Positions 4,290 to 35,160 of a stretch of DNA of 43,346 nt are shown here, piece by piece. The notes below the pieces were generated by a model. It saw only the letters and a list, made by a program, of their open reading frames with translations. It made no database searches and was not told where the DNA came from. The first letter of the stretch is position 1. Every line of letters begins with the position of its first letter. The stretch is from Nitrososphaerales archaeon (GTDB lineage: Archaea; Thermoproteota; Nitrososphaeria; Nitrososphaerales; JANXEG01): contig JANXEG010000003.1 in NCBI GenBank assembly GCA_025058425.1, positions 1 to 43,346 of the forward strand, given 5' to 3'. The translations under genes and the position numbers were made by a program.

Positions 4290-5573
4290 TCAAATCAATA
4301 GTTTTGGATCGTTAGGCCCAATATGCCCATATATGGTCTGGCATATGACCGTTTTAAGCCCTGTAGCCTTTAACATCTTCCAAACCTTGATCATTTCGTT
4401 AAAGCTGGGCCTCGACATAGATCGTTTCCTAAACTCAGGCCTATAGTCTAAGACACAGACTTGAAGTTCAGAATCTATACGGCAAATCTCATCACCTATC
4501 TTAGCAATCTCTTCGTAAGTTATCAGATCTTTATTATAAGGGATACCAACTCCTATAAAGACGGTACCTTTATACCTATCGACCAGATATTTGAGGGCTT
4601 GCCATGATGTCTTATGGTACTTTTCAGCGAGCTCTCTATCTACTATCCCAGTGATCTTCATGAATGTTTCCACACTTAAACCCTTCAGATCTGGACCTAT
4701 ATCGGTAACTCCAACCTCTACAAGTTCATCTATGTAATCACTCGTTAAGATCGTAGTATTCGTATCGATATGAAACCTCGCTTCACGATCTGGGTTGAGC
4801 CTCTTTAACTCTTTGATATATTGAATTAACCAACGCCTGTTAAGTGTACATTCGCCTCCAGATATCGCCATTCTATCTACACCGTAACGCCTTCTAATAT
4901 ACGTCATCACCTCAGCCGCCCTTTTTGGTGTATATGCCAATACTCTACCATTGTACGTCGTCGTCCAGTTTTGGCATTGAGGGCATCGAAGATTGCATCC
5001 ACATGCGAAGACCGCTACTTCAACGTACCCCTTGCCCTTAAGCCACCAAGGTGTTCCTACACCACCAACGGGATGTCCCATCCAACCATGGAGGAGCCTT
5101 TTAAGCTCCTGACTCTCCGAAATCCTCGTCTTAATCTCCATACCTTCCATAACTTTCGTAACACAACTCGGCCTTACAACACCGTTAATCTCAACAGCAC
5201 AGGCATAACACCCTCCCACTCCACATGGATTAAAAATATTATCATTCGGAAATTTAGGAAATTTAGAGAATTTAAAACCTGCAATCTCCAGCGCTCTTTT
5301 CACTGTAATCTTCTCTGGCACGTAAATAACTTCTCCATCCACCTTAATACGAACCTCTTTGACTTCTTCCATTCTAGACCTTAATTCTATAGCCATATGT
5401 GGACATGCTAAATAACAGGCTCCGCATCCAACACATTTATCTATATTTCCTACATCGAAGCATGGGCATGCAACGATTTCTTTACAGATATCACAATTAA
5501 CACACTTATCTACACTCTTTTCAGCATAGTACGATATATGTGCATGGTAACTCATGATCTTCTTTTCACTCAT
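4290..5573 (-). CDS. radical SAM protein with N-terminal 2x[4Fe-4S] and [2Fe-2S] ferredoxin domains
   Basis: A 427-residue protein with three Fe-S modules in order. Residues about 20-57 carry two ferredoxin-type cysteine sets (CVNCDICKEIVACPC and CVGCGACYLACP). Residues about 75-140 carry a plant-type [2Fe-2S] pattern C-x4-C-x2-C-x11-C (CGVGGCYACAV...PSC). From about residue 185 a radical SAM domain has CNLRCPQC (C-x3-C-x2-C) and the SAM-contacting SGGE motif. The radical SAM part resembles pyruvate-formate-lyase-activating/AmmeMemoRadiSam-type enzymes. The fused ferredoxins suggest on-board electron delivery. No substrate can be assigned; no glycyl-radical partner is seen nearby. Its leader contains, or lies just downstream of, the C/D sRNA at 5597-5661. 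Confidence 0.85.
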   Translation of the reverse strand: MSEKKIMSYHAHISYYAEKSVDKCVNCDICKEIVACPCFDVGNIDKCVGCGACYLACPHMAIELRSRMEEVKEVRIKVDGEVIYVPEKITVKRALEIAGFKFSKFPKFPNDNIFNPCGVGGCYACAVEINGVVRPSCVTKVMEGMEIKTRISESQELKRLLHGWMGHPVGGVGTPWWLKGKGYVEVAVFACGCNLRCPQCQNWTTTYNGRVLAYTPKRAAEVMTYIRRRYGVDRMAISGGECTLNRRWLIQYIKELKRLNPDREARFHIDTNTTILTSDYIDELVEVGVTDIGPDLKGLSVETFMKITGIVDRELAEKYHKTSWQALKYLVDRYKGTVFIGVGIPYNKDLITYEEIAKIGDEICRIDSELQVCVLDYRPEFRKRSMSRPSFNEMIKVWKMLKATGLKTVICQTIYGHIGPNDPKLLI

Positions 5574-5596
5574 TAGTATGGGACTTCGAGTTAAAG

Positions 5597-5661
5597 AGCG
5601 AGCTCAGAACTCAAGATCCAGCTCATGTGATTCACAAGGGCTAGACTCTTCACCGCTCGCT
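5597..5661 (-). ncRNA. C/D box sRNA candidate guiding 2'-O-methylation of C34 in tRNA-Leu(CAA)
   Basis: Read on the minus strand: a 7-bp terminal stem AGCGAGC/GCTCGCT, then a C-like box GTGAAGA (5653-5647, one change from RTGATGA), an 11-nt spacer, D'-like GTGA (5635-5632), a 5-nt loop, C'-like ATGAGCT (5626-5620), a 12-nt guide (5619-5608) and D box CTGA (5607-5604) directly against the closing stem. The 12-nt guide GGATCTTGAGTT pairs with nucleotides 30-41 of mature tRNA-Leu(CAA) encoded at 34947 (10 Watson-Crick pairs and 2 G-U). The fifth guide nucleotide upstream of the D box faces C34, the wobble base, satisfying the D+5 rule. AT-rich TATA-like sequences lie upstream at about 5667-5697. 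Confidence 0.72.
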
Positions 5662-5769
5662 TTAGATTATATAAGATCTAATTAGATAAAAATTTTTTCA
5701 ACTGACAACATCGACAAATAGCGTATAAATAAAACCCATATATCATTATAGAATAGAAGGTCGGTTTAG

Positions 5770-34879: not shown

Positions 34880-34946
34880 AAAGATTTAAGGATACGAATA
34901 TGAGATATCTTTAGCTTGTAAAAGCTAAATGGTGCGGGGGTCGAAT
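34880..34946 (+). promoter_or_regulatory. tRNA-Leu promoter and structured 5' leader
   Basis: A TATA box (AGATTTAAGG, about 34882-34891) predicts a start near 34912, leaving a leader of about 35 nt, long for an archaeal tRNA. The leader begins with an 8-bp hairpin TTTAGCTT-GTAA-AAGCTAAA (34910-34929), followed directly by TGGTGCGGGGG (34930-34940), the exact complement of the tRNA 3' end. GCGGGGGT occurs at 34934 and again at 34947 where the mature tRNA begins. Confidence 0.5.
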
Positions 34947-34955
34947 GCGGGGGTT

Positions 34956-34977
34956 AATGGTTAAATACCATCCCCAA
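34956..34977 (+). other. tRNA-Leu intron 1 (22 nt)
   Basis: A near-ideal BHB: exon GGGG (34950-34953) pairs with intron CCCC (34972-34975), 5' bulge TT|A, inner helix ATGGT/ACCAT closed by TAAAT, and 3' bulge AA|C. Splicing joins acceptor-TT to CCCGAGCC. Confidence 0.8.
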
Positions 34978-34992
34978 CCCGAGCCAGGTCAA

Positions 34993-35012
34993 AGCTTGAG
35001 CTGGGCGACAAG
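34993..35012 (+). other. tRNA-Leu intron 2 (20 nt)
   Basis: A relaxed BHB: exon GTC (34988-34990) pairs with intron GAC (35007-35009) with a neighbouring G-A mismatch, 5' bulge AA|A, inner helix GCTT/GGGC, and 3' bulge AG|A. The product restores D-stem CCC/GGG. Boundary uncertainty is one or two bases. Confidence 0.65.
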
Positions 35013-35021
35013 AGGGGGCAG

Positions 35022-35032
35022 AAGTAGCCTAG
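35022..35032 (+). other. tRNA-Leu intron 3 (11 nt)
   Basis: Exon GGGC (35016-35019) pairs with intron GCCT (35027-35030). The 5' site AG|A lies in the closing loop and the 3' bulge is AG|A, a bulge-helix-loop form. Splicing gives anticodon stem GCAGA/TCTGC. The intron is very short. Confidence 0.65.
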
Positions 35033-35160
35033 ACTCAAGATCTGCTCGCTGAGGCGTTCGTGGGTTCAAATCCCACCCCCCGCACCACTAGGCACATTAC
35101 GAGAATCTGGAGATACAGCCCAAGCCCACCTCTTTCGAACCTCAATGATTATTAGCTACA

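Follow-up and report, generated by a model that had tools for sequence, protein, structure and literature searches.

We identified a locus on the minus strand of the window (the whole stretch of 43,346 nucleotides analysed here) that very probably encodes a C/D box guide sRNA directing 2'-O-methylation of the wobble cytidine of tRNA-Leu(CAA), i.e. formation of Cm34. This assignment comes from sequence analysis of the locus, of its proposed target and of its homologs in other archaea. The sRNA would constitute a new, widely conserved and apparently uncatalogued family that belongs to a known kind of RNA and acts on a known kind of target.

Anatomy of the sRNA

In archaeal C/D box sRNAs, a C box (RUGAUGA) and a D box (CUGA) form a K-turn via the terminal stem. 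Such RNAs also carry an internal D'/C' motif, and a guide of 10-12 nt located directly 5' of the D box selects the target nucleotide at position D+5. The minus strand at positions 5660-5598 presents all of these features, namely C and D boxes with a stem, an internal D'/C' motif and a 12-nt guide with a target at D+5. Its sequence reads GCGAGC-G-GUGAAGA-GUCUAGCCCUU-GUGA-AUCAC-AUGAGCU-GGAUCUUGAGUU-CUGA-GCUCGC, in the order terminal stem, C box, D' guide, D' box, loop, C' box, D guide, D box and stem. The 6-bp terminal stem is formed by the 5' arm GCGAGC (5655-5660) and the 3' arm GCUCGC (5598-5603). Between both arms lie the C box GUGAAGA (5647-5653), the D' guide with its 11-nt spacer GUCUAGCCCUU (5636-5646), the D' box GUGA (5632-5635), the C' box AUGAGC(U) (5620-5626), which was recognized from the alignment and from structural covariation, the 12-nt D guide GGAUCUUGAGUU (5608-5619), in which G5612 occupies position D+5, and the D box CUGA (5604-5607), read from the window as well as from the alignment. 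The mature RNA is likely to be about 63-70 nt long, since the conserved block spans 5598-5660 and the covariance model R1 aligned at 5591-5665.

The original prediction had placed a C/D box sRNA on this strand at 5597-5661, and every element that it claimed was found, with the same box order and spacer length. The C box departs from RUGAUGA at a single position, where an A occupies the place of the fourth-position U, so that an A-U pair with the D box would replace the U-U pair. The D' (GUGA) and C' (UGAGC) boxes look degenerate, yet they are mutually paired (G-C). A comparison with Rfam gave no match above the gathering score in the sRNA region of the window.

Pairing of the D guide with tRNA-Leu(CAA)

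As had been proposed, a tRNA-Leu(CAA) is encoded in the window, on the plus strand at 34934-35087. The pre-tRNA carries an encoded CCA and three introns, one near position 9, one in the D loop and one in the anticodon stem. Because of these three introns the gene was missed by ARAGORN and Rfam, which reported a single tRNA, tRNA-Thr, in the unedited window. Relatives in which some of the introns are absent served as reference for writing the mature sequence; once the introns were removed, ARAGORN called tRNA-Leu(caa), with the anticodon stem GCAGA/TCTGC. A second exact copy of ACTCAAGATC is located at 35033, within this three-intron tRNA gene.

The D guide pairs with positions G30 to U41 of tRNA-Leu(CAA). 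The claimed pairing over all 12 nucleotides held, with the refinement that ten of the pairs (31-40) are Watson-Crick and that the pair at each end (G30 and U41) is a G-U wobble. The D+5 nucleotide G5612 faces C34 (position 35036), the predicted methylation site, as originally described. A 12-mer able to pair with the tRNA site and followed by CUGA occurred exactly once in the real window and in none of 150 windows simulated with a first-order Markov model.

The distance between the sRNA and the target gene, about 29 kb in the window, is only about 2 kb in G001, a genome of the same genus (G001:C2:327875-327950 and 329978-330016, respectively). In the tRNA-Leu(CAA) genes of Nitrosopumilaceae (L115-L121 and L130), an intron inserted after position 37 starts with ATC, which duplicates the 3' exon, and consequently both the spliced and the unspliced tRNA present CTCAAGATC to the guide.

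Conservation and covariation across relatives

Homologs were recovered in many families of the order by a DNA search of 150 relatives. A covariance model was then built from the homologs with the guide included, and weak matches in its counts should thus be taken with caution; within the order (Nitrososphaeria, Thaumarchaeota) it matched 130 of 151 relatives, 97 of 105 high-quality genomes and 47 of 48 genera, and phylum-wide its matches lay in 234 of 397 genomes and in 108 of 171 genera. It also recognized the family in Nitrosopumilus, Nitrosotalea, Cenarchaeum and Bathyarchaeota contigs. The guide core CUUGAG was present in all 40 divergent matches that were read. A literature search for C/D sRNAs in Nitrosopumilus found no precedent among the papers within its reach, most subscription papers lying outside it.

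Examination of homologous loci, a check that the original prediction had suggested, revealed conserved boxes and a near-invariant guide. In an alignment of 23 sequences, UGA.GA in the C box, GA in the D' box, UGA in the C' box, GAUCUUGAGU in the D guide and GA in the D box were invariant. The C/D structure was paired in 91.3% of cells, with both-sided changes in seven pairs, and its covariation score of 0.413, compared to 0.200 for shuffled alignments, was reached by none of 500 shuffles. The terminal stem and both K-turns covaried: the stem was paired in 94.9% of cells, with both-sided changes in four of its six pairs, and the D'/C' column pair 34-50, which is G-C in 16 sequences, U-A in five and U-G in two, was never broken.

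Guide and target also appear to have changed together. Guide position 12 is mostly A in genomes whose tRNA has U41 and G in those with C41, and the resulting pair is Watson-Crick in 16 of the 20 genomes for which both sequences were available (permutation p = 0.0013, a phylogeny-uncorrected value that is optimistic because the genomes, being related, do not count as independent observations). The pattern extends over families f1, f11 and f13 (U41) and f6, f9, f14 and f15 (C41). Among relatives, guide position +1 is inconsistently paired, and a few members are mismatched at position 41.

Alternative explanations

A chance combination of box-like motifs with a 12-nt match might be envisaged given that the C, D' and C' boxes are imperfect with respect to the consensus and that Rfam offers nothing above its gathering score. 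The original prediction had considered a random origin unlikely, and the empty result of the 150 simulations, the covariation and, decisively, the conservation of the locus throughout the order and the phylum make it so improbable that we regard it as excluded. The same breadth of conservation bears on the proposal that the element is a K-turn in the 5'-UTR of the radical-SAM gene that lies downstream (ORF 4290-5573, minus strand), bound by L7Ae to regulate that gene instead of acting as a guide. The sRNA does end about 24 nt 5' of this ORF on the same strand, and translational regulation based on L7Ae has been proposed in archaea (PMC5539422). However, the sRNA is conserved over many families along with an invariant guide, and G001, which belongs to the same genus, keeps the sRNA although its neighbour on the radical-SAM side is another gene. 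The latter observation speaks against a 5'-UTR element, and we consider this explanation very improbable. Equally little credence can be given to the idea that the locus encodes some other structured RNA in which the boxes are incidental. Folding prediction for the window's copy alone, free in solution, does give a longer hairpin (minimum free energy of −27.4 kcal/mol, z = −2.8), but the inner pairs of this hairpin are kept in 67.8% of cells across homologs, versus 91.3% for the C/D structure, and the hairpin was rejected on these grounds. An intramolecular pairing between the D' and D guides was likewise discarded, as both stretches pair with each other worse than shuffled ones do.

A further possibility would add to the methylation of tRNA-Leu(CAA) and not replace it: the same guide might also serve tRNA-Leu(UAA), in which case a G-U at D+5 would lead to methylation of U34 and both UUR isoacceptors would be modified by one sRNA. 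The tRNA-Leu(UAA) of relatives contains CTTAAGATC, to which the guide core is complementary except for a G-U at position 34. Nevertheless, the guide retains G, which matches C34 perfectly; a search of the window's own genome gave no Leu(UAA) pattern, although introns could hide it; and separate guides for Leu(CAA) and Leu(UAA) have been reported in Pyrococcus (PMC7994747). We therefore judge this dual role unlikely, and a guide for C34 of tRNA-Leu(CAA) remains the preferred assignment.

Proposed function in Cm34 formation

If it works as characterised C/D RNPs do, the sRNA complex would 2'-O-methylate C34. L7Ae would occupy both K-turns, the terminal one (C/D) and the internal one (D'/C'), and Nop5 and fibrillarin would then join the L7Ae-bound sRNA. 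Pairing of the D guide to positions 30-41 in the tRNA-Leu(CAA) anticodon arm would set C34 opposite D+5, where fibrillarin would methylate its 2'-OH to give Cm34. This modification would be expected to stiffen the wobble base and to favour reading of the UUG codon. The genome contains adjoining fibrillarin and Nop5 genes on contig C4 and two genes of the L7Ae family. In several families, TATA-like sequences (TTATTTA, CTTATATG) appear to recur about 30-40 nt 5' of the C box; they would be compatible with the sRNA having its own promoter. The sequences thus show the box anatomy, the covariation, the match and joint change of guide and target, and the presence of the protein genes, whereas transcription, RNP assembly, methylation of C34 and an effect on decoding are what we infer.

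A review lists Pyrococcus sRNAs that are directed at position 34 in each of tRNA-Leu(CAA), Leu(UAA), Met and Trp (PMC7994747). In P. furiosus, methylation of C34 in tRNA-Leu(CAA) was predicted, yet undetected among the tRNAs analysed (PMC7668247), and for this reason Cm34 in the window's genome is, here too, something that we infer. The Pyrococcus sRNA for this site (PMC7994747, PMC7668247) is of the same class and is predicted to have the same target nucleotide. The family described here, compared with it by description, is found in Thermoproteota, mainly in Nitrososphaeria, and has a conserved D' core (UAGCCC/UGGCCC) as a feature of its own. Guide sR50, which resides in the intron of pre-tRNA-Trp and directs Cm34 and Um39, is likewise a C/D guide for methylation of a wobble C34, whereas the sRNA of the window is not intronic in its own target, aims at a leucine tRNA and has one guide without a known target. 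The predicted Cm34 guide for tRNA-Met in Pyrococcus, sR49 (PMC2584109), resembles it in being a stand-alone guide for a wobble cytidine and differs in its tRNA and in its guide. Bacterial TrmL (YibK) also 2'-O-methylates position 34 of tRNA-Leu isoacceptors, but as a protein-only enzyme, a case of convergent function. Wobble 2'-O-methylation of leucine tRNA, protein-made in bacteria, is apparently RNA-guided in these archaea. The wide conservation of the guide, which extends to ammonia oxidisers that are mesophilic and have small genomes, speaks for a role in decoding and not in heat stability alone.

The D' guide

The core of the D' guide is conserved in relatives throughout much of the phylum. 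Most of the order has UAGCCC, Nitrosopumilaceae (f9) have UAUCCC, and members further away have either UGGCCC or UAGCCC. This conservation suggests that the D' guide has a function, and would imply a second target. Conserved targets were not found in the SSU and LSU rRNA of eight relatives, nor was a target found in 29 tRNA loci of the window's own genome, a set from which intron-rich tRNAs are missing. A search of six genomes for AGGGCYAGAG gave 11 matches that were inspected (in G046, G202 and G276), none of them in a tRNA-like context. According to a review, one guide lacks a target in sRNAs that are directed at tRNAs (PMC7994747). In the window (5646-5636, minus strand) and in homologs, the C at D'+5 would face a G.

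A split D guide and other variants

In G012 and G025, two genomes of a single genus in family f12, an insert breaks up the D guide, which reads GAGGAT, 23 further nucleotides and CTTGAGTGCTGAG (loci L337, G012:C3:116110-116320, and L336, G025:C35:4150-4340). Bulge-helix-bulge (BHB) introns, which are of the tRNA type, are defined by a 3-nt bulge, a 4-bp helix and a second 3-nt bulge, and their excision restores the exon. In the split guide, GAGG of the exon can pair with CCUC near the 3' end of the insert, with AUA and AGC as the 3-nt bulges and an inner GGC/GCC helix, and the predicted cut after the second bulge nucleotide on both sides removes exactly the insert and restores GGAUCUUGAGUG. 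Although both the geometry and the restored guide agree exactly with a BHB intron, its outer helix is weak and another fold is lower in energy, for which reasons the insert is called here a candidate BHB-like intron within a C/D guide. A literature search for introns in archaeal C/D sRNAs found no precedent within its reach, outside of which most subscription papers lay. Taken as a whole, the proposal that a wobble sRNA for tRNA-Leu(CAA) is widely conserved across Thermoproteota, mesophilic ammonia oxidisers included, and that in this genus a 23-nt BHB intron divides the D guide of the sRNA and would have to be removed by the tRNA-splicing machinery for full pairing with the target, has in our estimation an even chance of being correct. 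The inserts of G012 and G025 are identical at 17 of 23 positions, and the rest of the sequence at 63 of 65. Another variant was observed in family f8, where the loop between D' and C' of locus L298 (G008:C26:1995-2161) is greatly enlarged and contains inverted-repeat-like sequence.
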